Source: Phenylobacterium montanum (GTDB lineage: Bacteria; Pseudomonadota; Alphaproteobacteria; Caulobacterales; Caulobacteraceae). From it: DNA of 64,000 bases. A program made the position numbers and the translations under genes. The stretch lies in the NCBI RefSeq assembly GCF_018135625.1, contig NZ_CP073078.1:992001-1056000 (forward strand), in the 5' to 3' direction. A model generated the notes under the pieces. It ran no database searches and was not told the origin of the DNA. It was given only the letters and a program-made list of their open reading frames with translations. Positions 14,384 to 33,316 of this stretch are shown in pieces. Numbering within the stretch: position 1 is the first letter of the stretch; each line of letters begins with the position of its first letter.

Positions 14384-15097
14384 TTACTCCTTCGGCAGCC
14401 GCCAGGTGATCTTGAAGGTGTAGCTGGCGCCGTCGACCGGGACACCGTCCTTGGTCATCGGCTTCAGCCGGAAGATCTTCGACAGGGCGATCGACGCAGA
14501 GTCGAAGCCCATGTCGGCCGGGGTCACCGCGAGCACTTCGCAGTTCACCAGCTGGCCCTTCGACGTCACGGTGCACTTCACCGTGGTCGAGCCCTCGACG
14601 TTGTTCCGCTGCGCACGGTCCGGATAGTACCGCGCCATGTCGTCCTCATCGGGGCGACGGGCGAAGTCCGGCTGCGTGATCACCGCCTGGTGGGGCGGCG
14701 AGGGCGGCGCAGGCGCCGGCGGCGGCGGCGGGGCCTTAGGCGCCGGCGGCAGCTCTAGCGGCGGCGGCGGCGGCAGGCCCGGCGGCGGCGGCACCGGAGG
14801 ACGCGGAGCGACCTTCGGCGGCGGCGGCGGCGGTGCGTTCTTGGGCGGCGGAGGCGGAGGCGGAGGCGGAGGCGGCGGCGGCGGCGGGTGCAGAAGGTTG
14901 ACCTTCACCGCCTCGTCGGAGAACTCCTGGTACTTCGGCTCGAACTTCGCCTTGTAGATATAGACGCCGATAATGGTGTGCAGCACCGCCGCGAAACCCA
15001 GGCCGACATAGAAGCCGGTCCGGTTCCGCCGCGGGCGGCGGTCAGCCGTCAACGGGTCGTAGTGGTGCGCGTGTTCGGGATGCTCTTGATCAGCCAT
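14384..15097 (-). CDS. tonB: TonB family energy transducer
   Basis: Periplasm-spanning protein (237 residues) that passes proton-motive energy from ExbB-ExbD to TonB-dependent receptors. Residues 1-25 are cytoplasmic and rich in His/Arg, TM is about 28-48 (FYVGLGFAAVLHTIIGVYIY), then a long proline-rich spacer (about 70-145) including 15 consecutive prolines, then the C-terminal domain (QGSTT-like VEGSTTVKCTVTSKGQLVNCEV to FKITWRLP). Two Cys in the C-terminal domain could form a disulfide. The spacer DNA is a GC-only run of Pro codons, a likely site of slippage. Third gene of exbB-exbD-tonB; a clear terminator follows. Confidence 0.95.
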   Translation of the reverse strand: MADQEHPEHAHHYDPLTADRRPRRNRTGFYVGLGFAAVLHTIIGVYIYKAKFEPKYQEFSDEAVKVNLLHPPPPPPPPPPPPPPPKNAPPPPPPKVAPRPPVPPPPGLPPPPPLELPPAPKAPPPPPAPAPPSPPHQAVITQPDFARRPDEDDMARYYPDRAQRNNVEGSTTVKCTVTSKGQLVNCEVLAVTPADMGFDSASIALSKIFRLKPMTKDGVPVDGASYTFKITWRLPKE

Positions 15098-15113
15098 GCT
15101 GTTCCGCGAGCTC

Positions 15114-15560
15114 CTAACTTGGCTTGTGCCCGCGCTGATCGGTGCCGATCAGAGCGACGCTGTAGAAGCCATTGTCCTGGAGCTTGTCCATCACACCCAT
15201 GAAGTCCCCATAGAGGGTCAGCTTGTCGGCGCGGATATAGATGCGCTCCTTGGTCGGGTCCCGCTTGCCGATCAGCCGGCGGAGGTCGCCGCCCAACGCG
15301 TCCAGGTCAGTGGGCGAGTCGTAGATGTGCAGCGAGCCGTCGGCCTGGATCGTGATGTAAACGGGTTTCGGCGGGCTTTTCGAGACGGGCGCCACCGCGG
15401 GAGGTAGGTCGACTTTCACCGACACGGTGGCCATTGGCGCGGCCACCATGAAGATGATGAGGAGAACCAGCATAACGTCCACGAAGGGCGTGACGTTAAT
15501 TTCGTGGTTCGACTCGATATTGAACTTACCTCCGCCAGCCCCTGCGAGTTTGGCGGCCAT
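15114..15560 (-). CDS. exbD: Biopolymer transport protein ExbD
   Basis: Inner-membrane partner of ExbB (148 residues). One N-terminal transmembrane helix, INVTPFVDVMLVLLIIFMVA, carries the essential membrane Asp in PFVDVMLVLL that is thought to conduct protons. The rest is periplasmic and ends in the expected ExbD fold (IYIRADKLTLYGDFMGVMDKL). It lies 5 bases after exbB and 16 before tonB on the minus strand, so the three are one operon. Confidence 0.96.
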   Translation of the reverse strand: MAAKLAGAGGGKFNIESNHEINVTPFVDVMLVLLIIFMVAAPMATVSVKVDLPPAVAPVSKSPPKPVYITIQADGSLHIYDSPTDLDALGGDLRRLIGKRDPTKERIYIRADKLTLYGDFMGVMDKLQDNGFYSVALIGTDQRGHKPS

Positions 15561-15565
15561 CGGTA

Positions 15566-16459
15566 TTACGCCCCCTTATCGAGCTGGCGCGAGATGACGT
15601 TCAGGACTTCAGCCACGAAACCTTCCGACCGGGTGCCGTAGGCGGAGATCCGGGTCTGGAAGAAGTTGTACATGACCACGGCCGGGATAGCGGCGAAGAG
15701 GCCGACGCCGGTGGCGAGCAGCGCTTCAGCGATACCGGGCGCCACGACGGCCAGGTTGGTGGTGTTGGTGTTCGCGATGCCGATGAACGAGTTCATGATC
15801 CCGAACACGGTGCCGAACAGACCCACGAACGGGCCGGTCGAACCGACCGAGGCCAGGAACTGCATGCCGCCCGACAGGCGCTTGGCCAGCGAGGCCTGAA
15901 CGGCCACGACCGCCGAGGACGCGCGGGTCAGGGTGGTGTCGCGATGTTCGCCGGTGACCGACAGGCCAGCCTGGCGGGACAGTTCGACTTCGGTGGCGGC
16001 CGCGGCGGCCATGTCGGCCATCGGGTTGCCTTCGAACTCTTCCGAGGTGGCGATGCGGTTGATGTCGGCGACCGAACGGGCGGTGCGGAACGACTCCAGG
16101 AACTTGTCCGATTCACGGTTCAGGCCGGCGAACTCGAACAGCTTGGTGACCAGCATCACCCACGAGAACACCGAGCAGGCCAGGAGGCCCAGGATAACGA
16201 TCTTCACCACCAGGGTGGCGTTGCCGAACATGACCGGGATGGTCAGCTTCTGCGGGCCCTTGGCGGCTTCGGCGGACTGGTCGGCCGGAGCGGCGGAGGC
16301 AGCAACCGAGGAGTCGGCCGGGGCGCCGGATTCGGCCGGAGCGCTGGCGGCGGAGGAAGCCGCCGAAGACGCCGCCGTCTGAGCGAGAGCCGGCGTGCTC
16401 ATCACCAACGCCGCGGCGCCGAGGAGAGCAATGATGGGGGTCGTTCGTTTGTTGAGCAT
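15566..16459 (-). CDS. exbB: Biopolymer transport protein ExbB (MotA/TolQ/ExbB family)
   Basis: Proton-channel subunit of the TonB motor (297 residues). Unlike E. coli ExbB it begins with a cleavable-looking signal peptide (IIALLGAAALVMSTPALAQ) and an Ala/Ser/Glu-rich periplasmic segment of about 50 residues before TM1 (LVVKIVILGLLACSVFSWVMLVTKL). The conserved core is FVGLFGTVFGIMNSFIGIANTNTTNLAVVAPGIAEALLATGVGLFAAIPAVVMYNFF, spanning TM2 and TM3. Together with exbD and tonB it powers receptors such as those at 5976 and 25807. The longer N-terminal form is common in alphaproteobacteria. Confidence 0.94.
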   Translation of the reverse strand: MLNKRTTPIIALLGAAALVMSTPALAQTAASSAASSAASAPAESGAPADSSVAASAAPADQSAEAAKGPQKLTIPVMFGNATLVVKIVILGLLACSVFSWVMLVTKLFEFAGLNRESDKFLESFRTARSVADINRIATSEEFEGNPMADMAAAAATEVELSRQAGLSVTGEHRDTTLTRASSAVVAVQASLAKRLSGGMQFLASVGSTGPFVGLFGTVFGIMNSFIGIANTNTTNLAVVAPGIAEALLATGVGLFAAIPAVVMYNFFQTRISAYGTRSEGFVAEVLNVISRQLDKGA

Positions 16460-17289: not shown

Positions 17290-18252
17290 CTATTGGTATC
17301 CGGGGGATACGTAGCTGACGCCAGCCACGCCGGCGGGCACGAAGTCGCCTCCGGGAGGCGCGCCATAGTTCACCCCGCCGACCACCCTCAGCCCCGGGAA
17401 GGTGATGGTCGAAGTGGTGACAAGCGGCGTCGAGACCAAAACGCCCGACGAGGTCGAATAGACCGTGCTGGCGAAGGAAGCGCCCGAGCGCGGTTGCAGA
17501 TAGACGCTGTAGAAAGATGTCAGCGCCATGTTGGTGCAGGCGGTGTCGCGGCAGGGCCAATAGAGATAGCCGCCGTCGTTGTGCGTACCCCAGATGATCG
17601 GCCCGATGGAGACGATGTTGGTCCGCTCAATGTCCGCGGTCCAACCGACCGGGCTGGTCGAGACCGGCCAGATCGACATGCCTTGATAGCCCGTGCGGCA
17701 AGTGAAGTTGTAGATACGCAGCGCCTTGACCCCGCCGAATGGCTGAAGGCAGTCCGCGTGGAACTGGTCGGAATAGCCGTAGATGCCGTCGATGCGGACG
17801 TTCTCGATCTGGATCGTGGCGGCCGGCGAGTTGAACACCAGGCCGTCCGACATGGCGCCGCCCGACGCATCGCCCAGCAGGCCCTCGATATGCACTACGC
17901 CGGTGGCGCCGCTGACCTCGAGGATCCGGCTGGCCGGGCTGTTGGATTTATCGACGGTCCCATTGGACAGATAGGTCGGCGGCACGGTGTTGTAGCCGCC
18001 GATCGACACCACGTTGTGGCAGTTGAAGATCTGAACCCGCCCGACGTGCTTGGTCTTCGGCCAGTTGAGGATGCAGTCGGGGTGGTTCATGGGCGAGGCC
18101 ATGAAATTGCCGGCCGCGATGTTGATAACCACCGGGTTGTAGAGGGTCGGCGGTCGCCACTTCAAGGTTCCGGCGGAAGCCAGGGCCGGGGCGACGAGCA
18201 GGCACAGGCCCGCGAGTGCCGCCCAGAGCGGGCGACGCAGGGGGTTCGGCAT
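17290..18252 (-). CDS. Secreted protein of unknown function, tandem paralogue A
   Basis: A 320-residue exported protein (signal peptide PLWAALAGLCLLVAPALASA). The mature part is rich in Asn, Gly, Ile and Val with short repeating strands (VVHIEGLLGDASGGAMSDG, IQIENVRIDGIYGY), suggesting a right-handed beta-helix as in pectate lyases and polysaccharide depolymerases; this is inference from texture. Conserved with the neighbour at 18474 are FHADC-QPFGGVKALR, IWPVSTSPVGWTADIE and GGYLYWPC with a second Cys 5 residues later. No catalytic signature I can name. The start at 18252 was chosen because it opens directly on the signal peptide and gives the same length as the paralogue. Confidence 0.75.
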   Translation of the reverse strand: MPNPLRRPLWAALAGLCLLVAPALASAGTLKWRPPTLYNPVVINIAAGNFMASPMNHPDCILNWPKTKHVGRVQIFNCHNVVSIGGYNTVPPTYLSNGTVDKSNSPASRILEVSGATGVVHIEGLLGDASGGAMSDGLVFNSPAATIQIENVRIDGIYGYSDQFHADCLQPFGGVKALRIYNFTCRTGYQGMSIWPVSTSPVGWTADIERTNIVSIGPIIWGTHNDGGYLYWPCRDTACTNMALTSFYSVYLQPRSGASFASTVYSTSSGVLVSTPLVTTSTITFPGLRVVGGVNYGAPPGGDFVPAGVAGVSYVSPGYQ

Positions 18253-18473: not shown

Positions 18474-19436
18474 TCAGAGGCCGTATCCGGTCGAGACGTA
18501 GTGCAGGCCCGCGACACTTACGGGAACGAAATCGCCAACGGGCGGAACGCCATAGGTGACGCCGCTGATCACCGGCAGCTGCGGGAAGCTGATGCTCGCG
18601 CCGCTGACGACCGGCGGATGGATCAGGACGCCCGGCGAGGTCGAATAGACCGTCATGGCGAAAGAATTTGTCGGGCGCGGCTTCAGATAGACGTTCTTGA
18701 ACGACGTCAGAGCCATATTGCTGCAGCTGTAGGAAGCGCAGGGCCAGTAGAGATAGCCGCCGTTGTTGTGGGAGCCCCAGATCTGCGTGCCGATCGAGGT
18801 GACGTTGGTGTTCTCGATATCGGCGGTCCAACCCACCGGGCTGGTCGAAACAGGCCAGATGCTCAGGCCCTGGTAGGCGGTGTTGCAGGTGAAGTGGTCG
18901 ACCCGCAGCGCCTTCACGCCGCCGAACGGCTGGATGCAGTCGGCATGGAACTGGTCGTTGTAGCCGTAGATGCCGTCAATGCGGACGTTCTCGATCTCGA
19001 CCGTCGCCTGAGGGGCGTTGATGTCGATACCGTCCGACATGGCGCCGCCCGACGCATCGCCCAGCAGGCCCTCGATGTGGGCCACGCCGGTCGTCGCGCT
19101 CAGATAGAGGATGCGGGAATTGGCGTTGTTGGAGGTGTCGACGGCCCCGCTGGAAAGCTTGGCCGGCGGAACCGTGTTGTAGCCGCCCATCGAGACGAGG
19201 TTGTGGCAACCTTCGATCCAGACCGTGCCGACATGCTTGGTGGACGGCCAGCGCAGCACGCAGTCCTGATTGGTGGCGACGCGAGCGTGGAAGAAGCCCG
19301 ACCCGATGGTGATCACCACCGGGTTGACCAGGGCGGGCGGCGCCCACTTCAGCGGAACCGCGGCGAGGGCTGGGGCCGCGAGCAGGCAAAGGCTCGCCGT
19401 CACCGCCCCGGCCAGGCGGCTGAAGATACTCGACAT
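18474..19436 (-). CDS. Secreted protein of unknown function, tandem paralogue B
   Basis: Also 320 residues, aligning end to end and essentially without gaps to the protein encoded at 17290; well over half the residues look identical by eye. Signal peptide AGAVTASLCLLAAPALA. Shared blocks: HIEGLLGDASGGAMSDG, NVRIDGIYGY, QFHADC, QPFGGVKALR, IWPVSTSPVGWTADIE, MALTSF. The middle is much better conserved than the signal peptide, which argues that both copies are under selection. Likely beta-helix, possibly acting on or binding a cell-surface or environmental polysaccharide (inference). 221 bases separate the two genes, so each may have its own promoter. Confidence 0.75.
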   Translation of the reverse strand: MSSIFSRLAGAVTASLCLLAAPALAAVPLKWAPPALVNPVVITIGSGFFHARVATNQDCVLRWPSTKHVGTVWIEGCHNLVSMGGYNTVPPAKLSSGAVDTSNNANSRILYLSATTGVAHIEGLLGDASGGAMSDGIDINAPQATVEIENVRIDGIYGYNDQFHADCIQPFGGVKALRVDHFTCNTAYQGLSIWPVSTSPVGWTADIENTNVTSIGTQIWGSHNNGGYLYWPCASYSCSNMALTSFKNVYLKPRPTNSFAMTVYSTSPGVLIHPPVVSGASISFPQLPVISGVTYGVPPVGDFVPVSVAGLHYVSTGYGL

Positions 19437-21800: not shown

Positions 21801-22400
21801 ATGACCAAGGTCCTGGTGCTCTATCACTCTGCCTATGGCCATCTCGAAACCATGGCCAACGCCGTCGCCGAGGGCGCGCGCGAAGCCGGCGCAGAGGTCG
21901 ACGTCAAGCGCGTGCCCGAGACCGTTCCGGAAGAGATCGCCAAGGCGGCCCACTTCAAGCTCGACCAGAAGGCGCCGGTCGCCACAGTCGCCGAACTGGC
22001 CGACTACGACGCCGTCGTCATCGGCGCCGGCACCCGCTTCGGCCGCATGAACTCGCAGATGGCCGCCTTCCTCGACCAGGCCGGCGGGCTCTGGGCAAAG
22101 GGCGCCCTGCACGGCAAGGTCGGCGGCGCCTTCACCTCGACCGCGACCCAGCACGGCGGGCAGGAGACGACCCTGTTCTCGATCATCACCAACCTGCTGC
22201 ACTTCGGCATGGTGGTCGTCGGGCTGGATTACGGCCACGCCGGCCAGATGACCCTGGACGAAATCACTGGCGGCAGTCCCTATGGCGCCTCGACCATCGC
22301 CGGCGGGGACGGCTCGCGCCAGCCCAGCGCCAACGAACTGGCCGGCGCGCGGTACCAGGGCCGCAAGATCGCCGAGACGGCGGCGAAGCTGAAAGGCTAG
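21801..22400 (+). CDS. wrbA: NAD(P)H:quinone oxidoreductase WrbA
   Basis: Flavodoxin-fold FMN enzyme (199 residues) that reduces quinones by two electrons. Seen: [23 protein letters not shown] (phosphate-binding loop), [46 protein letters not shown] and [20 protein letters not shown], all standard WrbA blocks; the length is normal. Its TAG stop and the TAG stop of the convergent LysR gene share the tetranucleotide CTAG at 22397-22400. Likely transcribed with pirin. Confidence 0.96.
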
Positions 22401-23314
22401 TTGAGGGCCTGCGGGGGGGCCAGGCGGCCGCCCTGCTCCGCCTGGATCGCGCTCACCACGCCCCGCAGCGACCGCATCAGCGCGCTGCGGCGGCGCTCTC
22501 TCAGACAGACAAAATAGCTCTGCAGCCGAAACTCCCGCGTCGCCGCGTCCAGTGGGCGATAGGCGATGCGGCGGTCTGGGGGGCATTCGGTGGCGAAGAA
22601 GATGCTGACGCCGAGGCCCAAAGCGATCCCCTCGCGAATGGTCTCGCGGCTCTGCAGTTCGATCACAGAGGCCGGCTCGACCGCCGCCGCGGCCATGGCC
22701 CGGTCTGCAAAGGCCCGGGTCTTGGAGCTGGTCTCCCGCTGCAGCATCACTTCGCGCGACAGTTCGATGATGCTGACCTCATGACGGTCCGCCAAAGGAT
22801 GCCCTGCCGGCAGGGCGCACCAGAGCTCGTCGGAATAGAGCGGGTCGTAGCTGAACGCGTCGTCGCCGGGCGGGTCGCTGACCAGGGCGGCGTCGACCTC
22901 CGCCTCGGCCAGCAGCCGCACCACGTCCCTGCCATTGGCCATGCGCACCTGCACGCCCATCTGTGGGTGCAGCCGACGAAAGCCCTGCACCAGGCGGGCC
23001 GCATAGCCGGGCGAGTCCGAGCCCAGGCGCAGCATGCCGCCCATCAGCCCGGCGCCCTCGTCCAGCATCTCGTCGACCTCCGCCGCCGCGGCGAAAAGGC
23101 GCTCGGTCAAGGCGAACAGGTCGCGCCCGGCCAGCGACAGCTGCAAGGGCGACTTGCGGCTCTCGAACAGCTGCACCCCGTGCCGCTCCTCCAGCGCCTT
23201 CAATTGTTGGGACAGGGTCGGCTGGGCGACGTTGAGCCGCCGCGCCGCGCGGGTGACGCTGCCTTCCTTGGCGATGGCGTGAAAGGCGCGCAGGTGCTGA
23301 TAGTTTGCAGCCAT
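22397..23314 (-). CDS. LysR family regulator divergent to the phosphonate genes
   Basis: A 305-residue LysR protein: helix-turn-helix at residues 4-47 ([33 protein letters not shown]...) and a substrate-binding-type effector domain with [25 protein letters not shown]. It is encoded head to head with the FAD oxidase/phnX operon, the position usual for phosphonate-catabolism LysR regulators, which respond to an aminophosphonate (inference from context). The ATG at 23314 opens directly on the DNA-binding domain; an ATG at 23341 is possible and would run through the candidate Pho box. Confidence 0.88.
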
Positions 23315-23339
23315 GGGAAGTTGCCGATAAGCGCGCTCC

Positions 23340-23357
23340 ATGACGTCCGCATGACAA
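23340..23357 (-). promoter_or_regulatory. Candidate Pho box in the LysR/phosphonate promoter region
   Basis: Read on the minus strand, TTGTCAT (23357-23351), spacer GCGG and ACGTCAT (23346-23340) form two 7-base repeats with the 11-base period of PhoB sites (consensus CTGTCAT, 4 bases, CTGTCAT). Matches are 6/7 and 5/7. The spacer is GC, whereas classic sites have A/T there, so the call is tentative. Confidence 0.35.
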
Positions 23358-23488
23358 GGCGCCGGCGCGCCGCCATAGGCCCCGGCTATGCCCCGCATCC
23401 AAGCAAAGGCTTGGCGTCGCGCGCGGCCTTGGGATGAAAAGCGGACGCCTCGCGCGCGGGCTCTATATACAGTGAAGGATCGCCGGCC

Positions 23489-24631
23489 TTGTCAGAACAG
23501 CGTTTCGATCTCGCCGTCGTCGGCGCCGGCATAGTCGGTCTGGCCCACGCCCTGGCGGCGGCGCGGCTGGGCAAGCAGGTGGTGGTGGTCGACCGCGACG
23601 CCCAGGCCAATGGCGCCTCGATCCGCAATTTCGGCTTCGTCACCGTTACTGGACAGGAACAGGGCCTGATCTGGCGCCGCGCCCGCCGTTCGCGCGACGT
23701 GTGGGCCGAGGTCGCTGGGCCAGCGGGGATCGCCATCGAACATGCGGGCCTGGTCCTGCCGGCCCAGCGCCCTGAGGCCGCGGCGGTGCTGCAAGCTTTC
23801 CTCGAGACCGACATGGCCGGAGGCTGCCGCTGGCTGGGTAAGGACGAGGCATCCGGACAATTGGGTCCGGTCCAGCCCCCGGCGCTCGAAGGCGCCCTCA
23901 TCAGCGACGTCGACCTGCGCGTCGAGTCGCGTCAGGCGATCCCGCGCCTGGCCGCCTGGCTGGAAGCAGCCCATGGGGTCATCTTCCGCCGCGGCGTCAC
24001 GGTCCAAGCGGTCGAGACCGGCCTGCTGGTGACCAGCCAGGGGTCAATCCATGCGGACGCCATCGTCGTCTGCCCTGGCGACGATCTGTTTGGCCTGTTC
24101 CCGGACAGCTTTACCCAGGCTGGCGTGACTCGCTGCAAGCTGCAGATGCTGCGCCTGGCGGCGCCGGGCTGGCGCCTGCCGGCGGCGGTGATGTCCGACC
24201 TCAGCCTGGTTCGCTACCTGGGCTACGCCGCCCTGCCCGAGGCCGAAGCCCTGAAGGCGCGGCTGCTGTCCGAACAGCGCAGTCACCTGGCCCACGGCGT
24301 GCACCTGATCGTGGTGCAGAGCGCCGACGGCAGCCTGGTGGTGGGCGACAGCCACGACTATGCCCCGACACCCGATCCGTTCTCGTCCGACGCCCTAGAC
24401 CAGCTGATCCTGGATGAGTTCGCCGCCGTGTTCGGCCAGGCGCCGCCTCCCGTGATCGAGCGCTGGACAGGAACCTACGCCTCGGCCCCAGGCCACAGCC
24501 TCGTCGAGACGCCGGCGCCGGGCGTGCGGCTGGTTGTGGTGACGGCTGGCAACGGGGCCTCCACCGCCTTCGGCCTGGCCGAGGAGGTGATCGGCGAACT
24601 CTATGGTGTGAAGATGGGAGACGCAGCATGA
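23489..24631 (+). CDS. FAD-dependent aminophosphonate oxidase (TIGR03364/PbfC-PbfD type)
   Basis: A 380-residue DAO-family flavoprotein: Rossmann motif DLAVVGAGIVGLAHALAAARLG at residues 7-28, then RDAQANGASIRNFGFVTVTGQ, a block I associate with the phosphonate-linked subfamily, and C-terminal TAGNGASTAFGLAEE closing the FAD site. Such enzymes have been reported to oxidise N-methyl-2-aminoethylphosphonate, and some plain 2-aminoethylphosphonate, to phosphonoacetaldehyde. The next gene, phnX with a 4-base overlap, cleaves that product. No phnW transaminase is present in the window. The start is TTG 23489, with AAGGA 9 bases before; no ATG or GTG fits. A TATATAC at 23464 may be the -10. Confidence 0.82.
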   Translation: MSEQRFDLAVVGAGIVGLAHALAAARLGKQVVVVDRDAQANGASIRNFGFVTVTGQEQGLIWRRARRSRDVWAEVAGPAGIAIEHAGLVLPAQRPEAAAVLQAFLETDMAGGCRWLGKDEASGQLGPVQPPALEGALISDVDLRVESRQAIPRLAAWLEAAHGVIFRRGVTVQAVETGLLVTSQGSIHADAIVVCPGDDLFGLFPDSFTQAGVTRCKLQMLRLAAPGWRLPAAVMSDLSLVRYLGYAALPEAEALKARLLSEQRSHLAHGVHLIVVQSADGSLVVGDSHDYAPTPDPFSSDALDQLILDEFAAVFGQAPPPVIERWTGTYASAPGHSLVETPAPGVRLVVVTAGNGASTAFGLAEEVIGELYGVKMGDAA

Positions 24632-25434
24632 CCTCGGCGATCAAGGCGGTGGTGCTGGACTGGGCCGGGACCATGATCGACCACGGCTGCCGCGCGCCCG
24701 TGGTGGCGCTTCAGCGGGTATTCGCCGAGGCCGGCGTGGAGATCACCGAGGCCGAGGCGCGGGCCGACATGGGCCGGGCCAAGCGCGACCACATCCGCGC
24801 GCTTCTGGCCATGCCGCGCATCGCCGAGGCTTGGCTCGCCGCTCGCGGCGCCCCGTCTGGCGAAGGCGACGTGACGGCTCTCCACGACGCGGTCGAGCCT
24901 ATGATGCGCGCCGCCGCGGCCGATTGCGCCCAGTTGATCCCCGGCGCGGCCGCCCTCTCGGCCTATCTGCGAGAACAGGGAATCAAGATCGGCTCCACCA
25001 CTGGCTACACCCGGCCGATGATGACTGACATCCTGCCCCGCGCGGCCGACCAGGGCTATACCCCGGACACAGTGGTCTGTTCCGGCGAGACGCTTGAGGG
25101 GCGCCCCTCCCCGCTGATGATGTGGAAGGCCCTGGTCGAGATCGGCGCCTGGCCGGCGAGCGCCTGTGTCAAGGTCGACGACGCGCCGGTGGGCATGGGC
25201 GAAGGCCGCGCCGCCGGCGCCTGGGCGGTCGGCGTCGCCGCCTCTGGCAACGGCGTGGGCCTGGACCACGACACGCTGACGGCCCTGAATCCCGTCGTGC
25301 GGCGCGAGCGGATCGAGGCCGCCGCCGCGGCCCTGAAGGCGGCCGGCGCGCACTATGTGGTGGACAGCGTCGCAGATCTGCCGCCAGTGCTGTCCGAGAT
25401 CGCCACCCGCATCGAACGCGGCATGCGGCCCTGA
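24628..25434 (+). CDS. phnX: Phosphonoacetaldehyde hydrolase (phosphonatase)
   Basis: HAD-superfamily enzyme (268 residues) that splits phosphonoacetaldehyde into acetaldehyde and phosphate. Nucleophile Asp11 is in VVLDWAGTMIDHG, the usual PhnX motif with Trp after the Asp. The Schiff-base lysine is Lys52 in MGRAKRDHIRALL. IKIGSTTGYTRPMM provides HAD motif 2, GRPSPLMMWKAL motif 3 and VKVDDAPVGMGEGRAAG motif 4. Length and motif order match true phosphonatases rather than general HAD phosphatases. It overlaps the oxidase gene by 4 bases. Acts in the cytoplasm as the last step of phosphonate degradation. Confidence 0.93.
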   Translation: MTSAIKAVVLDWAGTMIDHGCRAPVVALQRVFAEAGVEITEAEARADMGRAKRDHIRALLAMPRIAEAWLAARGAPSGEGDVTALHDAVEPMMRAAAADCAQLIPGAAALSAYLREQGIKIGSTTGYTRPMMTDILPRAADQGYTPDTVVCSGETLEGRPSPLMMWKALVEIGAWPASACVKVDDAPVGMGEGRAAGAWAVGVAASGNGVGLDHDTLTALNPVVRRERIEAAAAALKAAGAHYVVDSVADLPPVLSEIATRIERGMRP

Positions 25435-25806
25435 GCGGCCACTATCCTCGGGTTTTGTGACAGGCCGCTTCGCACAACGGACGGGGGCCGATGACCGGCG
25501 CCAGACTGTCCGATCGCAGAAAATCCATCACCCGCGGCGCAAAAAGGCACAGATTCAGTCGAAATAGTTCAAACAATTATTCGATTGCTGCGTCACACGT
25601 GAAACTTTCGCGACGCATCGTTTTCAATACAGTTTTATGACGTTCCCGCTCATAGGTCTGACCTATAAGCGCATTCGCTATTAAATATTAGCTCCAATCG
25701 CTCCCCTCGCTCAGTTTCCATTCGGACTGTTTTCGGCGTCCGAGCGGGGACTTCACCTCGTCCGGCGCAGTTCGGCTGTTTGCCGGCGTCTACGGGGGAT
25801 GAGGTC
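25435..25806. other. Gene-free stretch, promoter region of the second TonB-dependent receptor
   Basis: About 370 bases, clearly AT-richer than its neighbours between 25550 and 25710. It holds a 15-base palindrome (25652-25666) and an AT-rich segment at 25678-25692 suited to a promoter. No open frame of note and no hairpin terminator after phnX were seen, so some read-through from phnX into the receptor gene is possible. Confidence 0.45.
25652..25666. promoter_or_regulatory. 15-base palindrome upstream of the TonB-dependent receptor
   Basis: ATAGGTC-T-GACCTAT, perfect arms of 7 bases, 141 bases before the receptor start. The core GT-N3-AC resembles operators of GntR-family regulators, but no GntR gene is present in the window. 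Confidence 0.45.
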
Positions 25807-28494
25807 ATGAGAGCCAGCTATATGATTTCCTGCGCGGTCGCCGCGCTCTTGAGCGGCGCGGCCAGCGCCAACGCCGCAGATCAGGCCACCGCGCCTGCCG
25901 CCGCCGCGGCGGACGCCGCCGGCCCCGGCATCGAGGCCATTGTGGTCACGGCGCAGCGCCGCGACGAAAGCGTGCAGAAGGTCCCCATGACCGTTCAGGC
26001 CATGACCGGCCTGACCCTGCAGAAGCTGAACGTCACCACGCTGGACGACATCCTGAAATATACGCCGAACGTCACTTTCGCGAACAACGGGCCGGGCCAG
26101 GGCAACATCTACATGCGCGGCCTCTCGGCCGGCTTCGCGGGCAACCAGTCGAGCGCCACGGCCGGCAACTTCCCGAACGTCGCGGTCTATCTCGACGACC
26201 AGTCCATGCAGTTCCCGGCCCGCAACGTCGACATCTACATGGCCGACATGGAGCGCGTCGAAGTGCTGGAGGGCCCGCAGGGCACCCTGTTCGGCGGCGG
26301 CGCGGAGGCCGGCGCGGTGCGCTACATCACCAACAAGCCCAAACTGAACGTCTATTCGGGCGCCTTCGAGGGCAGCTATGGCGGAACGGTAGGCGGCGGC
26401 GCCAACGGCAGCGCCAATGTGGTGATCAACCTGCCGGTGATCCAGGACAAGCTGGCGGTGCGCGCGGTGATCTACGACGATCACCATGGCGGCTACATCA
26501 ACAACGTGCCGAGCACCTTCACGCGGAAGAACTCCGACCTCGGCAACAGCTATTTCAACATCCAGCCCGGCGCCAACGGGCTCTGCCCCAACGGCCTGCC
26601 CCCCGCCGGAACCAATCCGTGCTCACCGCCGAATTCCGGGCCGATCAACAACTACAATATCGCTCATAAGAACTGGAACCCGGCCGACTATCTGGGCGGC
26701 CGAGTCGAAGCGCTCTACCAGATCAACGACGACTGGAACGTCCTGATCTCCGAAAGCGCCCAGCATCTGGACGCCGAGGGCATCTCCGCGGCGTATCCGA
26801 TCGGTTCAGATGGCCAGAAGCTTCAACCGCTCCAAATCACGGCCTTCAACCCGTCCTATGAAAAGGACAGCTACGAGAACACCGCCTGGACCATCAACGG
26901 CAAGATCGGCCCGCTGAAGGCCGTCTATACCGGGTCCTATATGTCCCGGCACATTTCCGAGCAGATGGACTACGTGAACTATTCCCGCACGGCCGGCGGC
27001 ATGTATTACCAATGCGTCGGCGGCGGCACAGGCTGGGCGGGATCGCCGAGCTGCTATTCGCCGAACGGCTATTGGCAGGACACGGTCAAGAACACCCACC
27101 TGACCAATGAGGTGCGCCTGAGCACGCCGGACACCTGGCGCATCCGGGCGATCGGCGGCGTATTTTTCGAAGATTTCAAGATCTACGACGACCAGAACTT
27201 CAACTACAGGACGATCCCCGCCTGCAACGCGACGACCCTCCCCATCGCCCTTGCGGGCGGGGCGACCTGCGTTGGCGACGTGGGGCCCCTGCCGGGCACG
27301 ACGACCAACCATCCCGGATTGCGCAGCGACAGCACCGCCTTCGGTGAAGACGCCCAGCGCGGCTACGACCAGGACGCGGTGTTCGGCTCGGTCGATTTCG
27401 ACGTCATTCCCGACGTCCTCACCGTTACGGCCGGCACCCGCTGGTACCGGTACTCGGAATACGAGGTGGGAACTCAGTACGGCACCAGCACCGCCTGCGC
27501 CAATGTGCTGGTCTGCTCCGCCGCAGACGTGAACATCGACGCCGCCCACGACCACAAGGTCTACACAGGCTTCCGCAGCCGCGCGAACGTCACCTGGCAC
27601 ATCACGCCCAACGTGCTGACCTATTTCACGTTCTCACAAGGTTTCCGGCCCGGCGGCTTCAACCGCTCGGTCAAGGGCGTGGCCAAGGACGCCGATGGCT
27701 TCGCGCAGTACGAAAAGCCCAACTCATACGCGCCGGACTCGCTGACCAACTACGAGATCGGCTTCAAGAGCGAACTGTTAGATCATCGTCTGCAGTTCAA
27801 CCTGTCCGCCTACTACATGCAGTGGGAAAACGTTCAGTTCCTGTTCTTCAACCCGACCCAGCTGGGCAACACCACCTTCGGCGTCAACGGCCCCAACTAC
27901 GAGGTCAAGGGCGTCGAGGCGCAATTCGTCGGCCGCGTCACCCACGAGCTGACGGTGCAGGGTTCGGCGTCCTACAATGACGCCACCCAGGCGAACTCGC
28001 CCTGCCTGGTAGCCAATATCGCGACGCCGGCCGGCGACACTGATCCCAATCGAGCCAAGGTCGGGCAGTGCATCACCGAGGTGAAGGGAAATCCGTTCCA
28101 GAACCCGTTCGGCTCGGTCGGCTCGACCCCCGCGTTTTCGCCGAAGTTCCAGGGCACCATCCGCGCCCGCTACGAGCGGGAGATCGGCGACAAGACGGCC
28201 TTCGCCACGGTCGGGGCCAACTATACCGGCAGCATGTTCAATCAGCCGGCCACCTATCAGTCGGGCGAGGGCGTGACCATCCCGACCACAACCTATCTGC
28301 GCTACAAGCAGCCGTCCTACACGACCTATGACGCTTCGGCCGGCATCGACATGGGCAAGTACACGGTGACCGTGTTCGGGGCCAATCTGGGGAACTCGCA
28401 CGCCAGCATGTTCACCTCGTCGGCCCAGTTCATCAAATCGGAGGTGCCACTCCGGCCGACCACCTACGGCGTGAAGATCAACGCCAGCTTCTAG
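25807..28494 (+). CDS. TonB-dependent receptor, candidate phosphonate or organophosphate importer
   Basis: Outer-membrane receptor of 895 residues with a signal peptide (SYMISCAVAALLSGAASANA). TonB box IEAIVVTAQRRDESVQKVPMTVQ, plug (LDDILKYTPNVTF...NIYMRGLSAG), MERVEVLEGPQGTLFGGGAEAGAVRYITNKP and a barrel ending in SF. It is of the large caulobacter/sphingomonad type. GGGGGATGAGG precedes ATG 25807. It lies 372 bases downstream of phnX and upstream of a TPR-sulfotransferase and a DUF5690 carrier on the same strand. The substrate is inferred from these neighbours only; the barrel has several Cys pairs (CVGGGTGWAGSPSC, CANVLVC) in likely surface loops. Confidence 0.9.
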   Translation: MRASYMISCAVAALLSGAASANAADQATAPAAAAADAAGPGIEAIVVTAQRRDESVQKVPMTVQAMTGLTLQKLNVTTLDDILKYTPNVTFANNGPGQGNIYMRGLSAGFAGNQSSATAGNFPNVAVYLDDQSMQFPARNVDIYMADMERVEVLEGPQGTLFGGGAEAGAVRYITNKPKLNVYSGAFEGSYGGTVGGGANGSANVVINLPVIQDKLAVRAVIYDDHHGGYINNVPSTFTRKNSDLGNSYFNIQPGANGLCPNGLPPAGTNPCSPPNSGPINNYNIAHKNWNPADYLGGRVEALYQINDDWNVLISESAQHLDAEGISAAYPIGSDGQKLQPLQITAFNPSYEKDSYENTAWTINGKIGPLKAVYTGSYMSRHISEQMDYVNYSRTAGGMYYQCVGGGTGWAGSPSCYSPNGYWQDTVKNTHLTNEVRLSTPDTWRIRAIGGVFFEDFKIYDDQNFNYRTIPACNATTLPIALAGGATCVGDVGPLPGTTTNHPGLRSDSTAFGEDAQRGYDQDAVFGSVDFDVIPDVLTVTAGTRWYRYSEYEVGTQYGTSTACANVLVCSAADVNIDAAHDHKVYTGFRSRANVTWHITPNVLTYFTFSQGFRPGGFNRSVKGVAKDADGFAQYEKPNSYAPDSLTNYEIGFKSELLDHRLQFNLSAYYMQWENVQFLFFNPTQLGNTTFGVNGPNYEVKGVEAQFVGRVTHELTVQGSASYNDATQANSPCLVANIATPAGDTDPNRAKVGQCITEVKGNPFQNPFGSVGSTPAFSPKFQGTIRARYEREIGDKTAFATVGANYTGSMFNQPATYQSGEGVTIPTTTYLRYKQPSYTTYDASAGIDMGKYTVTVFGANLGNSHASMFTSSAQFIKSEVPLRPTTYGVKINASF

Positions 28495-28521
28495 TGTCCG
28501 ACCCAAACTAGTGTGACTATC

Positions 28522-28547
28522 CGCGGCGGGCGGCGACGCCCGCCGCG
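28522..28547 (+). terminator. Strong hairpin between receptor and sulfotransferase genes
   Basis: Perfect 11-base stem CGCGGCGGGCG / CGCCCGCCGCG closed by a GCGA (GNRA) tetraloop and followed by TCTTTA. It begins 28 bases after the receptor stop and ends 15 bases before the next start, so it may terminate part of the transcripts or protect the receptor mRNA 3' end. Confidence 0.65.
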
Positions 28548-28562
28548 TCTTTACAGGGCTTC

Positions 28563-30584
28563 ATGCAGATCACCCCAGCGACCGCGGCCTCCTCGCCGAT
28601 CGAACACGAAGTGCGCCGCCTGCGGGCTTTGCAGCAGCAGGGCCAGTACGAGGAGGCCCTGCAGAGCGCCCTCCCCCTGTTGGCGCAGATCCCGGAAAAT
28701 CGCGATCTCCTACTGATCATTGGCGGCAGCCTGCGGCTGCTCGGCCGCATCGCCGAGGCCCTGGAAGCGCTCGACCGGCTGGTGGCGCTGCAACCGCGCT
28801 TCAGCCTGGGCCACCAGGAACGCGGGCTCTGCTTCGTCGCGCTCAAGGATGCCCCGCGCTCCATCGAGGCGCTGTTGCAGGCGGTGAACATCAATCCGGC
28901 CCTGCCGATGAGCTGGCGCATGCTGGAAGGGGTCTATCGCATCGCCGGCGACGCCGAAAACGCCGCCAAGGCGGCCGCCCACGTCGCCACGCTGAAGGCC
29001 ATGCCGCCGGAGGTGGTGACCGCCACCTCGCTGTTTTCCGACGGCGACCTCGTCCCGGCGGAACAGATCATCCGCGCCTTTCTCCTACGCCATGGCGACC
29101 ATCCCGAGGCGATGCGCCTTCTCGCAAAGATCGGCATGGCCCACGACGTGCTGGACGATGCGGAGCTACTGCTCGAAGCGACCCTGGCGTTGGAGCCCGA
29201 CCATCACGCAGCCCGTTACGACTACGCCCAGACCCTGATCAACCGGCACAAGCACGCCCAGGCCCGCGAACAGGTCCAGCAACTTCTGGCGATCGATCCC
29301 GGCAACCTGGACTACCGCTCCCTTGCCGCCACCGCCGCTGTGGGACTGGGCGAGCAGGAGGTGGCTATCGAGATCTATCGCGGCATGCTGGCGGATGTCC
29401 CCGGGTCCGCGGACATCCAGCTCTGGTTAGGTCATGCCCTGAAGACCACTGGACAGGTTCCATCCGCTATCGAAGCCTATCGCGGCGCGGCTGCGGCGCG
29501 GCCAGGCTTCGGCGACGCCTACTGGAGCCTCGCCAACCTCAAGACCTACCGCTTCGAGGACGCCGAAATCGCCTGCATGCAGGCCGAGGAGGCCTCCGCC
29601 TCGATCTCGACGGAAGACCGCACCCACCTCTGCTTCGCCCTCGGCAAGGCGTTCGAGGACCGCGGAGAGATCGAGCGATCCTGGTCGTTCTACGAACGCG
29701 GCAACCGGCTAAGGCGTAATGAAAGCCATTACCGCCCGGAGATCCTGGAGACCAACACCCGGCGTCAGATCGAGGTCTGCAACAGCGCGTTCTTCGAGCG
29801 CCGAACCGGCTGGGGCGATCCGCGGCCCGACCCGATCTTCATCCTCGGCCTGCCGCGCGCCGGGTCGACCCTGCTGGAACAGATCCTGGCCTCCCATTCG
29901 CAGGTCGAGGGCACTCAGGAATTGCCCGACATCCAGCGTTTCGCCCTGGACCTGCAAGGCCGCGATCCGGACCTCGACGATCCCCGCTACCCGGGCGCGC
30001 TCGAAGACCTGTCCGCCGACGACATCCGCCAGATGGGCGAAAAGTACCTGGCCGACACCCAAGTCTATCGCTCCGGCCGGCCGTTCTTCATCGACAAGAT
30101 GCCGAACAATTTCCGCCACATCGGCCTGATCCACCTGATCCTGCCAAAAGCGAAGATCATCGACGCCAGGCGCGAACCGATGGCCTGCTGCTTTTCGAAC
30201 CTCAAGCAGCTGTTCGCCCAGGGCCAGGAATTCTCGTACAGCCCTGAGGACATCGCCCGCTACTACCGCACCTATCTCGACCTGATGGAACACTGGGACC
30301 GCGCATTGCCAGGCCGCGTGCTGCGGGTGCACCACGAGGACATTATCGACGATCTGGAGAGCGGCGTGCGGCGAATCCTGGATTACTGCGGCCTCGACTT
30401 CGAACCCGGTTGCATCGAATTCCACAAGACGAGGCGCAGCGTGCGGACACCGAGCTCCGAACAGGTCCGCCAGCCCATCTTTCGCGACGGGCTGGACCAG
30501 TGGCGGGCCTACGAGCCCTGGCTGGGGCCGCTGAAGGACGCGCTGGGCGACGCGGTGATCAGATACAGGAGCAAACGCGCGTGA
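28563..30584 (+). CDS. TPR-repeat protein with C-terminal sulfotransferase domain
   Basis: A 673-residue cytoplasmic-looking protein. Residues 1-400 are tetratricopeptide repeats (for example YEEALQSALPLLAQIPENRDLLLIIGGS and IEAYRGAAAARPGFGDAYWSLANL). Residues 425-670 are a sulfotransferase domain: PIFILGLPRAGSTLLEQIL near residue 429 is the 5'-phosphosulfate loop of PAPS, and KIIDARREPMACCFSNLKQLF is the 3'-phosphate block. By family knowledge it moves sulfate from PAPS to a hydroxyl or amine; the acceptor is unknown. Genes of this type are frequent beside TonB-dependent receptors in Caulobacterales and sphingomonads, with unknown purpose. It overlaps the next gene by 4 bases (GTGA). Confidence 0.88.
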   Translation: MQITPATAASSPIEHEVRRLRALQQQGQYEEALQSALPLLAQIPENRDLLLIIGGSLRLLGRIAEALEALDRLVALQPRFSLGHQERGLCFVALKDAPRSIEALLQAVNINPALPMSWRMLEGVYRIAGDAENAAKAAAHVATLKAMPPEVVTATSLFSDGDLVPAEQIIRAFLLRHGDHPEAMRLLAKIGMAHDVLDDAELLLEATLALEPDHHAARYDYAQTLINRHKHAQAREQVQQLLAIDPGNLDYRSLAATAAVGLGEQEVAIEIYRGMLADVPGSADIQLWLGHALKTTGQVPSAIEAYRGAAAARPGFGDAYWSLANLKTYRFEDAEIACMQAEEASASISTEDRTHLCFALGKAFEDRGEIERSWSFYERGNRLRRNESHYRPEILETNTRRQIEVCNSAFFERRTGWGDPRPDPIFILGLPRAGSTLLEQILASHSQVEGTQELPDIQRFALDLQGRDPDLDDPRYPGALEDLSADDIRQMGEKYLADTQVYRSGRPFFIDKMPNNFRHIGLIHLILPKAKIIDARREPMACCFSNLKQLFAQGQEFSYSPEDIARYYRTYLDLMEHWDRALPGRVLRVHHEDIIDDLESGVRRILDYCGLDFEPGCIEFHKTRRSVRTPSSEQVRQPIFRDGLDQWRAYEPWLGPLKDALGDAVIRYRSKRA

Positions 30585-31897
30585 GCGTTCTCGAAGAGGC
30601 TGTCGCGCCTTCGCCCGCGCGCCGCGGGGGCCTGACCGCCTGGCTCGAGCGGGCGCCGCCGGCCCTGTTCTGCGCCTTCGCGGGACTCGCCGCCCTCTCG
30701 GCCTATTCGGCCATGTACGCCTTCAGAAAGCCGATCGCGGCGGCCAGTTTCGATCATGTGGCCGGCTGGCCCTTCGCTCTGGACTACAAGACCGCCCTGA
30801 TCATCGCCCAGACACTGGGCTATGCCTTCTCCAAGATCGTCGGGGTCAAGCTGATCGCCGAGTTCGGACAGCGGCGGCGAGGCGTCGCCATCCTTGGCCT
30901 GATCGCCGCGGCCTGGGCGGCTCTCGTACTCTTTGCGATCCTGCCGGCGCCCTGGAACGTGGCCTGCCTGTTCCTCAATGGCGTGCCGCTGGGCCTGATC
31001 TGGGGCCTGGTGATCAGCTATCTGGAGGGTCGGCGCACCTCCGAGGTCCTGGGCGCAATCCTCTGCGCCAGCTTCGTGATCTCCTCCGGCGTCGTCAAAT
31101 CGATCGGCCGCATTTTACTGGACCACTTCCAGGTCACCGAGTTCTGGATGCCGGCGGCGACCGGGGCGGTGTTTTTCCCGCTGCTGATCATCGCGGTCAT
31201 GGGCCTTTCGGCCATTCCACCACCGAACGAGGCGGACAAGGCCCAACGCAGCCCGCGCTCACCGATGGATCGGACCCAGCGCCGCAATTTCGTGGCCGGT
31301 CACTGGGGCGCGCTCGTCCCGCTCGTGCTGGCCTATGTGCTGCTGACCGCCTTCCGCGATTTCCGCGACAACTTCGCCGCCGAGATCTGGCGAGCTCTGG
31401 GCTACCGCAACGTCGCGGCCATGTTCACCGGCAGCGAACTGCCGGTGGCGGTGGTGACGCTGGCGGCCGTGGCGGCCCTGATCAAGGTGCGCGACAACCT
31501 GAAGGCCCTGATGCTGGTCCACGGCATGATCGGCTTCGGCGCCGTGCTGCTGGCCGGCTCGACCATCGCCCAGACCATGGGGCTGATCGACCCCTTGAGC
31601 TGGATGATCCTCTCGGGCGCCGGCCTCTACATGGCCTATGTGCCCTACAACGCCGTGCTGTTCGACCGCATGATCGCGGTGACACGCGAGACCGGCAATG
31701 TGGGATTCCTGATCTATCTCAGCGACGCCACCGGCTATGCCGGTTCGGTCGGCCTGATGCTGCTGCGCGACTTCGCCACCCTGCACGCAGACTGGCTGGG
31801 CTTCTTCCGCGACGCGGCCTACGCCACGGCGGCGCTGTGCGCCGTTTGCGCGGCCCTGTCGGCGCGGCATTTCCTGAGGAATCACAGAGCCGCCTGA
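30581..31897 (+). CDS. DUF5690 family multi-pass membrane protein, MFS-like carrier
   Basis: A 438-residue protein with about 12 hydrophobic segments in two halves, separated by a charged loop (PPPNEADKAQRSPRSPMDRTQRRNF, about 213-236), the layout of a major-facilitator carrier. TM1 reads YSAMYAFRKPIAAASF with Arg49-Lys50, placed as in the RK of GlpT and UhpT that binds phosphate. TM7 carries LLTAFRDFRDNF with Arg259 and Arg262, near where GlpT has its second phosphate Arg. I infer an inner-membrane carrier for a phosphate- or phosphonate-bearing solute. GTG start at 30581 overlaps the sulfotransferase stop. Function unproven. Confidence 0.72.
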   Translation: MSVLEEAVAPSPARRGGLTAWLERAPPALFCAFAGLAALSAYSAMYAFRKPIAAASFDHVAGWPFALDYKTALIIAQTLGYAFSKIVGVKLIAEFGQRRRGVAILGLIAAAWAALVLFAILPAPWNVACLFLNGVPLGLIWGLVISYLEGRRTSEVLGAILCASFVISSGVVKSIGRILLDHFQVTEFWMPAATGAVFFPLLIIAVMGLSAIPPPNEADKAQRSPRSPMDRTQRRNFVAGHWGALVPLVLAYVLLTAFRDFRDNFAAEIWRALGYRNVAAMFTGSELPVAVVTLAAVAALIKVRDNLKALMLVHGMIGFGAVLLAGSTIAQTMGLIDPLSWMILSGAGLYMAYVPYNAVLFDRMIAVTRETGNVGFLIYLSDATGYAGSVGLMLLRDFATLHADWLGFFRDAAYATAALCAVCAALSARHFLRNHRAA

Positions 31898-32140: not shown

Positions 32141-33316
32141 TCACGGTGTTGATCGTTGTGCCGGAGGAACGGCGGGCATCTCAACGACCCAAGCTCCATC
32201 CTTGAGCTGACCGGGCTCGGCCGTCGTGACGAGTGGCGGCATTTTCGAGCGCAAACGAACAAAGCGAATATGCGGGCACGCAAAGTCAAACGTGCGCTTC
32301 AGGTTCTGAGCCACGGCCGCCTCGCTTGGATTCATCTGTGAAGCGATCAGGTCACGGTTTGTTGTCGCCGCGGTCCGGTTTGTGGCATCACTCTCGGGAA
32401 ATCGAGAAATTGCCCTGTCCATCCAGACCCACGCACCGGGCAAGCTTCGACTGACACCCCACCCAGAGTAGTACATCACACTCATGTGGAATTGCGCGAC
32501 AGGGTCTTCCTGGCAGGCCGCTTTTTGATAGAGATCGAAGGCGACGCCCCAGTCTCGTGCAACACCTTCACCGTTATCGTAGAGCTGAGCCAGGCTTAGT
32601 TGCGCAGGCGCATATCCCTGATCCGCCGCCTTGCGATACCAGCCGATCGCCGCTGCTATGTCTGGCGGCCCATCAACTCCCTTCCTTTGATAGAGATCCG
32701 CAAGAGCAGTCTGGCCGTACCGGCTTCCGCCCTCAGCACTCTTTCGCAGCCAGGCTATCGCCTTGGCATGGTCTTTCGAAACCCCCTGACCTTGGTCATA
32801 AGCCAATGAAAGCGCGTATTGGGCATCGGCGTAGCCCTTGTCGGCCGCCTTTTGCCACCACTCTGCGGCGAGGGAATAGTCCTGCGAGACCCCGCGCCCA
32901 TCGCGGTAAAAGACCGCTAGGTTGAACTGCGCCTCGTCATAACCCTGGTCGGCCGCTTTGCGATACCAAGACGCGGCTGCAACGGGGTCGGGGTTCACGC
33001 CGAGACCGCGGTCGTACAAGGAACCGATGTTAGATTGGGCCTCCGCCAATCCTTGGTCGGCGGCTCGATGCAACCATTTTTGTCCCTCGACGAGATTTTG
33101 AGGAACCCCTAGGCCATTGATGTAGAGGGTTCCAACGTCGTACTGCGCCGATGCGTCGCCAGAACGCGCTAATGGCAGCAGCAGCTTGATCGCTGTCGCA
33201 TAGTCGCCGTGTTCAAATGCAGCCTTTCCATCCTCCAGCGGTCCCCCAACCGCAGTCCCTAACGCCGGTAGGGCCAGCAGGCAGCCCAATACAATCACAG
33301 AAGGGTTGAACCTCAC
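32141..33316 (-). CDS. Secreted Sel1-repeat (SLR) protein
   Basis: A 391-residue exported protein (signal peptide VIVLGCLLALPALGTAVG). It consists mainly of about seven Sel1/TPR-like repeats of 36 residues with the pattern A-x2-G-x2-AQ-x2-L-x2-LY-x3-GV-x2-D-x3-A-x2-W-x3-A, for example DEAQFNLAVFYRDGRGVSQDY and ADAQYALSLAYDQGQGVSKDH. Such solenoids mediate protein-protein contacts; some serve in stress signalling or host interaction. The C-terminal 90 residues are not repeats and are unrecognised. It is the only gene inside the tRNA-Phe mini-element and has lower GC and more mixed codons than the flanking genes, consistent with acquisition by transfer. Confidence 0.85.
   Translation of the reverse strand: MRFNPSVIVLGCLLALPALGTAVGGPLEDGKAAFEHGDYATAIKLLLPLARSGDASAQYDVGTLYINGLGVPQNLVEGQKWLHRAADQGLAEAQSNIGSLYDRGLGVNPDPVAAASWYRKAADQGYDEAQFNLAVFYRDGRGVSQDYSLAAEWWQKAADKGYADAQYALSLAYDQGQGVSKDHAKAIAWLRKSAEGGSRYGQTALADLYQRKGVDGPPDIAAAIGWYRKAADQGYAPAQLSLAQLYDNGEGVARDWGVAFDLYQKAACQEDPVAQFHMSVMYYSGWGVSRSLPGAWVWMDRAISRFPESDATNRTAATTNRDLIASQMNPSEAAVAQNLKRTFDFACPHIRFVRLRSKMPPLVTTAEPGQLKDGAWVVEMPAVPPAQRSTP

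Follow-up and report, generated by a model that had tools for sequence, protein, structure and literature searches.

The window analysed here is a 64 kb stretch of the 5.65 Mb genome (2 contigs) of Phenylobacterium montanum, and the genes at positions 22397-31897 within it are considered likely to form a single regulon under LysR control that scavenges 2-aminoethylphosphonate (AEP), probably together with its N-methyl form. In this regulon a TonB-dependent receptor and a protein of the Pfam family DUF5690 would import the substrate, and a flavin adenine dinucleotide (FAD)-dependent enzyme of the PbfD type would degrade it together with PhnX, the phosphonoacetaldehyde hydrolase. An earlier note on this DNA had named six genes here and placed five of them in one direction within 8.5 kb; all six were matched by family profiles, and the five same-direction genes were found within 8.4 kb (Table 1).

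In the proposed mechanism, the receptor would pass the aminophosphonate, or its carrier molecule, across the outer membrane, and DUF5690 would then move it across the inner membrane, perhaps against phosphate in the manner of organophosphate antiporters. The flavoenzyme would oxidise the amine to phosphonoacetaldehyde, hence PhnW would be unneeded, and PhnX would split phosphonoacetaldehyde into acetaldehyde and phosphate. The LysR protein, which may be AepR-like, would act at both copies of an ATAG-N7-CTAT palindrome, one before the FAD enzyme and PhnX genes and the other before the receptor operon, while a sulfotransferase with tetratricopeptide repeats (TPR) would serve the receptor rather than phosphonate chemistry. 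We infer from the conserved linkage and the shared palindrome that the ligand of the receptor is an aminophosphonate.

Aminophosphonate catabolic genes and the company of DUF5690

The assignment of two genes to a TIGR03364-type FAD oxidase and to PhnX, made in the earlier note, was borne out, as both proteins scored above the curated cut-offs (Table 1). The match of the FAD enzyme to TIGR03364 was full-length (profile positions 2-365 of 365), and the enzyme matched no PDB sequence at 0.001. PhnX aligned over its length to phosphonatases of known structure (E 1e-65 to 3e-54); its LDWAGT motif and MGxxK stretch align with 3iru and presumably hold the nucleophilic aspartate and the Schiff-base lysine, respectively. 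Of 149 genomes sampled from the Caulobacteraceae, the 64 with the FAD gene were also the 64 with PhnX. No PhnW over cut-off was found in the P. montanum genome (best 37.9 bits, against 360.8), and the FAD enzyme with PhnX is therefore the expected route.

This pairing has a described counterpart. According to the available portion of PMC10590968, PbfD1 is annotated within TIGR03364, PbfD enzymes convert N-methyl-AEP and AEP to phosphonoacetaldehyde in vitro with oxygen, and AEP itself is converted to a good degree by PbfD2, which may replace PhnW; the same portion states that pbfD genes outside the PbfD1 group mostly adjoin phnX alone. The window resembles that pathway in having a TIGR03364 FAD enzyme adjoining phnX without phnW, and the reactions are expected to be identical. 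It differs in its transport genes, as the main text of PMC10590968 mentions TonB nowhere and a transporter once.

DUF5690 was found in 63 of the 149 family genomes and the FAD enzyme in 64, with both in 54 (Fisher p 1.1e-20), and in 41 of these 54 the two genes were no more than 10 kb apart. Their order and orientation varied (DUF5690 divergent with the FAD gene, 3' of PhnX, or 5' of the FAD gene), and so the linkage survives rearrangement. The same company was kept in the phylum of [Muricauda] okinawensis, which we take to be the Bacteroidota: among 296 genomes, DUF5690 occurred in 30 (29 over cut-off), the FAD enzyme in 23 and both in 21 (p 4.5e-23), and the pair lay within 10 kb in 17 of the 21. 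A FAD gene, a PhnX or PhnX-like hydrolase, an HD oxygenase or PhnW was present within ~1.5 kb at 18 of the 29 over-cut-off DUF5690 loci of that phylum.

A further sample of 80 named loci was chosen by DUF5690 alone; these are the best 80 of at least 427 relatives and, the query having been built from this family, they lean to near relatives and overlap partly with the 149 genomes. Within 6 kb of DUF5690 the FAD enzyme was found at 49 of these loci, PhnX at 45 and an HD-domain protein at 34, and 60 of the 80 had at least one of FAD enzyme, PhnX, HD oxygenase or TmpA-like gene. TmpB and PhnZ are matched by the HD protein, which scores 197.2 bits with the phosphonate HD oxygenase model, just under the cut-off of 214.6; a TauD-like neighbour matches TmpA (305.7, cut-off 400), and in an Ignavibacteriales locus genes for PhnW and PhnX, each above cut-off, come after DUF5690. 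Since DUF5690 stands beside TmpB/PhnZ-type HD oxygenases, TmpA-like oxygenases and PhnW with PhnX, it tracks aminophosphonate breakdown and not a single enzyme. Gene calls, clusters and profiles were our own, and some genes were missed (a Sel1 gene at 32141, and the FAD gene of locus L136); the maps of L139, L171, L190 and L191 hold no anchor gene, and the map counts are thus lower bounds.

Two other settings of DUF5690 were observed. In one genus, that of Caulobacter sp. 602-1, a DUF5690 type lies in a conserved neighbourhood (L169, L173, L177, L183, L185, L186). Elsewhere phospholipase C genes occur with GntR, HD oxygenase and DUF5690 genes (L109, L195, L212, L220, L233, L254), which suggests use of phosphonolipid head groups at those loci.

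The receptor, its sulfotransferase and the shared palindrome

The two halves of the locus, i.e., the catabolic pair and the receptor operon, had previously been joined from adjacency only. The genome survey supports this link by conserved co-occurrence: orthologs of the receptor (>=53% identity) and of the sulfotransferase (>=64%) were found in the same 23 of the 149 family genomes. The two shared a contig in each of the 23, and only in G055 did their starts lie more than 4 kb apart. Among the matches listed, 17 of 24 sulfotransferase orthologs lay within 10 kb of a FAD, PhnX or DUF5690 gene, as did 12 of 18 matches at 53-60% identity, 1 of 18 at 48-52% and 1 of 90 paralogs below 48% (Fisher p 8e-14 for 17/24 against 1/90); these classes of 24, 18, 18 and 90 are the 150 matches listed. 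Four of the seven exceptions among the orthologs are on contigs shorter than 10 kb (G032, G040, G046, G068). In G010 an HD oxygenase gene adjoins the receptor, and G104 has a second sulfotransferase copy, 388 bases from PhnX; G019 (contig 38.6 kb), with no FAD, PhnX or DUF5690 gene within 10 kb, is genuine. Among the loci with the full set in one place are L268 (from an alphaproteobacterial assembly), L257 (Sphingomonas sp. TREG-RG-20F-R18-01), L271 (a Sphingomonadales assembly) and L193, and in L268 and L257 the receptor, sulfotransferase, FAD, PhnX and DUF5690 genes stand in line.

A second link comes from the palindromes. ATAG-N7-CTAT occurs exactly twice in the 64 kb, in the promoter regions of both halves, where 0.03 occurrences are expected and 0 of 100 shuffles gave two. 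The copy between the LysR and FAD genes, ATAGGCCCCGGCTAT, fits what we take to be the T-N11-A form of LysR sites. The count was extended to 166 non-redundant loci (8 of 174 having been dropped as redundant). With a spacer of 7, the 300 bases 5' of genes for LysR, the FAD enzyme, the receptor, the sulfotransferase or DUF5690 (100 kb) contained 20 sites, compared with 3 before other genes (516 kb), and spacers of 3-6 and 8-12 gave 0 to 2 sites upstream of the set genes. The 20 sites fall in 15 loci, all with a LysR gene, and none falls in the 127 loci without one, a zero that follows in part from the way of counting, as sites in front of LysR itself were included. The receptor-only count is free of this effect: the site precedes 6 of the 7 receptors of this type with a LysR gene in the locus and 0 of the 21 others. 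For other TonB receptors the count was 1 of 80 (type c17 excluded), and for receptors of type c17, which mostly adjoin the same LysR, 7 of 12. Three sites are present in L193, one in front of DUF5690, one separating the sulfotransferase gene from the FAD gene and one separating the receptor gene from LysR; L257 and L234 have two each. At the level of sequence, the palindrome is a link between the halves beyond adjacency alone.

The regulator itself carries LysR_substrate and HTH_1 domains. The LysR protein AepR is required for full phnWX induction in Pseudomonas putida, as stated in the accessible text of PMC9311074, and in the window, as with AepR/TIGR03339 regulators, the LysR gene points away from the AEP catabolic genes. 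It differs in that the LysR protein here scores below the family cut-off; the text on AepR, as far as available, is without TonB and gives no binding site.

The receptor has a signal-like N-terminus and a TonB-box-like stretch, IVVTAQRR, both identified by eye in its translation; the stretch is presumably a form of the TonB box. Genes for TonB, ExbD and ExbB (PF03544, PF02472, PF01618) lie in one run at 14384-16459 (-), ~6 kb from the locus, and are a possible source of energy for the receptor. No TonB receptor for aminophosphonates was found in the literature searched, which was mostly open-access, and among the papers listed the one with both TonB and phosphonate terms, PMC5955973, treats TonB receptors as iron uptake in its available part.

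The sulfotransferase had been counted into the phosphonate arrangement, and this stood in part. It co-occurs with the receptor throughout the 23 genomes, but it is not phosphonate-specific: elsewhere in the P. montanum genome a TonB receptor adjoins a Sulfotransfer_3 gene in at least 5 of 8 further loci. These 8 loci hold 9 of the 10 further matches (a partial one at 5385857 was left out), with receptor profiles from five clusters. The sulfotransferase type therefore goes with receptors as a class and seems to accompany TonB receptors in general. A sulfotransferase acting on phosphonates was set aside, since its paralogs adjoin other TonB receptors.

Two stretches of the sulfotransferase, GLPRxGSTLxEQ and RRxPxxCxFSNxKQxF, vary little or not at all among 24 sequences, and we assume them to be the motifs for catalysis and for binding of 3'-phosphoadenosine 5'-phosphosulfate (PAPS). 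The closest sequence of known structure among sulfotransferases is a protein-tyrosine sulfotransferase fragment (8w5z, E 4.3e-6), closely followed by a polyketide-synthase domain (4gox, E 1.8e-5). The fold search was dominated by the TPR part, which resembles the protein-modifying enzymes OGT and SPINDLY as well as the non-enzymes Ctr9, Naa15 and parts of the BBSome, and said little on the catalytic domain. From the likeness to OGT and SPINDLY, the kept motifs and the protein-tyrosine sulfotransferase match comes a bold guess, namely that the sulfotransferase modifies the receptor. In other relatives of the locus the receptor operon is extended by genes of another sulfotransferase family and by genes for Asp/Asn-hydroxylase-like proteins. 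Operons of this kind, with a TonB receptor, Sulfotransfer_2, an Asp/Asn-hydroxylase-like gene and a TPR-sulfotransferase, and mostly a second hydroxylase-like gene, were seen in L124, L128, L137, L151 and L327-L329, and these may be modification cassettes.

Carrier fold, locus layout and known systems

DUF5690 had been proposed as a carrier, and the AlphaFold model (18 sequences) agrees: it is helical throughout and has a major facilitator superfamily (MFS) fold, with a predicted local distance difference test (pLDDT) score of 88.0. On the evidence of this model the designation as a carrier fits DUF5690. Its best fold matches in the PDB are sialin and G6PT (best E 6.1e-8; TM-scores 0.55-0.67 over the query). 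Other MFS carriers rank closely behind, and the fold alone therefore names no substrate. At the sequence level the DUF5690 profile matched no PDB sequence at E 10, and MFS_1 gave no match in the protein. Arg49-Lys50 and Lys85, invariant in the 18 DUF5690 sequences, fall on Arg45-Lys46 and Lys80 of GlpT in a weak profile alignment, and the seventh-helix arginine of GlpT has no clear counterpart. Arg45-Lys46 and Lys80 of GlpT bind phosphate. That DUF5690 exchanges its substrate for phosphate is a guess.

Transcription of the plus-strand genes is probably from two units. The FAD and PhnX genes overlap by 4 bases, as do the sulfotransferase and DUF5690 genes, and the gaps between PhnX and receptor and between receptor and sulfotransferase measure 372 and 68 bases. 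Scans of the window for promoters (4 promoter-like sites, 1.7 in shuffles) and terminators (6 terminator-like, 6.4 in shuffles) were uninformative; one promoter-like site, on the minus strand, lies within the PhnX-receptor gap. TIGR03364, PhnX and DUF5690 each have a single match over cut-off in the genome. Elsewhere in the window, 17290-18252 and 18474-19436 (-) encode adjacent 320-residue proteins that are similar by eye and match no Pfam family at E 0.001.

Table 1. Genes and palindromes of the putative aminophosphonate regulon, in order along the window
Feature	Position	Strand	Basis
LysR regulator	22397-23314	-	longest open reading frame to 23398; start 23314 puts the helix-turn-helix near the N-terminus (own gene calling)
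Operator-like palindrome ATAGGCCCCGGCTAT	23375-23389		LysR/FAD gap; ATAG-N7-CTAT
FAD-dependent aminophosphonate oxidase, PbfD/TIGR03364 type	23489-24631	+	TIGR03364 402.1 bits, cut-off 285.1
PhnX, phosphonoacetaldehyde hydrolase	24628-25434	+	TIGR01422 333.6 bits, cut-off 220
Second palindrome ATAGGTCTGACCTAT	25652-25666		~140-155 bases 5' of receptor start; ATAG-N7-CTAT
TonB-dependent receptor, candidate aminophosphonate importer	25807-28494	+	Plug PF07715 and barrel PF00593
TPR superhelix and PAPS-type sulfotransferase, receptor companion	28563-30584	+	Sulfotransfer_3 165.7 bits, and TPRs
DUF5690 (PF18943), MFS-fold carrier, candidate inner-membrane aminophosphonate permease	30581-31897, GTG start	+	506.9 bits, cut-off 25

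The earlier note had called a TonB receptor with an MFS-type route a distinct arrangement. MFS-type uptake of AEP is already known from AepP of Pseudomonas putida BIRD-1 (PMC8316502, in the part available), but the DUF5690 family and the receptor are new. AepP, according to that part, is likewise an MFS carrier adjoining AEP catabolic genes, with a proposed role identical to that of DUF5690, and it is a GlpT relative (27.75% identity). DUF5690 is by contrast a separate Pfam family that is only weakly similar to GlpT, UhpT and UhpC, a distinction drawn at the level of families. The Pseudomonas AEP systems, as described in the accessible portions of PMC8316502 and PMC9311074, also combine LysR regulators with an MFS permease; here the carrier belongs to another family, oxidation would remove the amine, and the putative regulon includes an outer-membrane receptor.

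The ATP-binding cassette (ABC) importers PhnCDE and AepXVW have in common with the locus the import of aminophosphonates, as proposed here, and differ in that the locus is without ABC genes: no PhnC, PhnD or PhnE was found among its genes, and the genome has a PhnD-type gene in another region. That gene (4745736) belongs to a second phosphonate set (L338, G000:C1:4738000-4757900), where PhnE and ATPase genes were recognised by eye and a phosphonate HD-domain oxygenase-like gene scores 212.7 bits with TIGR03276 (cut-off 214.6). Given this set, the present locus is a second route. Relatives of genes from the TmpA-TmpB and PhnY-PhnZ pathways adjoin DUF5690 in other loci; the pathways differ from the window locus, which lacks them, and the relatives do not reach the curated cut-offs for TmpA and TmpB. 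A review of phosphonate uptake (PMC10574752), in the text available, lists ABC importers and facilitators of symporter or antiporter type and presumes entry by porins such as PhoE, and the word TonB is absent from that text. DUF5690 as a word was not found in the literature searched.

Alternative readings and implications

A number of observations weigh against a single aminophosphonate regulon. Genomes that are related to one another do not count as independent samples. DUF5690 was missing from 10 of the 64 genomes with the FAD enzyme, and the FAD enzyme from 9 of the 63 with DUF5690; in 13 of the 54 genomes with both, the two were not within 10 kb, mostly being on separate draft contigs. None of the listed catabolic genes was found within 6 kb of DUF5690 at 20 of the 80 named loci, or within ~1.5 kb at 11 of the 29 loci in the phylum of [Muricauda] okinawensis, and the maps of L169, L173, L183 and similar loci show DUF5690 without FAD, PhnX or HD oxygenase genes. 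The similarity of DUF5690 to a GlpT/UhpT/UhpC profile is weak (hhalign probability 27%, E 6.6e-4). The best NCBIfam match of the LysR protein is the aminoethylphosphonate-associated TIGR03339, at 240.6 bits and below the cut-off of 341.1. The exact palindrome lies 5' of only 6 of 28 receptors of this type, and 24 of 39 LysR loci have none before the set genes, which may reflect drifted operators or takeover by other (GntR-like) regulators. TonB receptors are no denser near DUF5690 (34 in 722 kb within 5 kb) than farther out in the same loci (29 in 612 kb); mere proximity of a TonB receptor was therefore not used as evidence, and orthology and palindromes were used instead. AEP is also small and could pass porins.

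The small size of free AEP bears on the alternative that survives best, which is possible, if somewhat unlikely: the FAD enzyme, PhnX and DUF5690 would form the aminophosphonate unit, and the receptor and sulfotransferase would import another, perhaps larger phosphonate source, such as phosphonolipid head groups or phosphonate-bearing glycans, rather than free AEP. A phospholipase C gene lies within 6 kb of DUF5690 at 23 of the 80 named loci, enzymes of this kind being secreted, and PhoD-like or other phosphoesterase genes occur in related loci. The set in the window, however, has no adjoining phospholipase gene, and the receptor and sulfotransferase directly precede the FAD, PhnX and DUF5690 genes in L268 and L257, although L257 has a phospholipase C gene at its end.

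A role for DUF5690 in exporting a product (phosphate or surplus aminophosphonate) or in sensing, rather than in import, is quite unlikely. MFS folds permit both directions, UhpC, an antiporter relative, is annotated as a sensor, and Stappia stellulata exports phosphate while growing on AEP (PMC8316502, in the part available). The DUF5690-associated pathways differ in their carbon products (PhnX, TmpA/TmpB-like, PhnWX), which argues against export; phosphate, the sole product common to them, is compatible with phosphate export. A reading in which the receptor and sulfotransferase have nothing to do with phosphonates (serving, e.g., iron or vitamin import) and owe their place to chance or loose clustering is very improbable: TonB receptors are common in these genomes, the halves are 372 bases apart and Sulfotransfer_3 genes adjoin other receptors, but the orthologs and distant paralogs differ sharply in their proximity to set genes, gene runs recur in L105, L108, L257 and L268, and the palindrome is common to both promoters.

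For the regulon reading, the claim of a new family, made for DUF5690, is strong on synteny. As the neighbours of DUF5690 are of the same kind in a distant phylum, it is a candidate for a new class of phosphonate transporter. A bolder version is unlikely to hold in full: that DUF5690 is a widespread aminophosphonate permease family of Alphaproteobacteria and Bacteroidota, standing here behind a dedicated TonB receptor that its TPR-sulfotransferase modifies, with the model extending to other receptor-sulfotransferase pairs.

Reduced phosphorus occurs widely as aminophosphonates, and their import by bacteria is known for few transporters. If the regulon reading is true, a Pfam family without a function would gain one, and a marker of aminophosphonate use would become countable in metagenomes. 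The outer-membrane step of aminophosphonate uptake would become testable, and the sulfotransferase genes that adjoin TonB receptors would gain a study system with a probable substrate.

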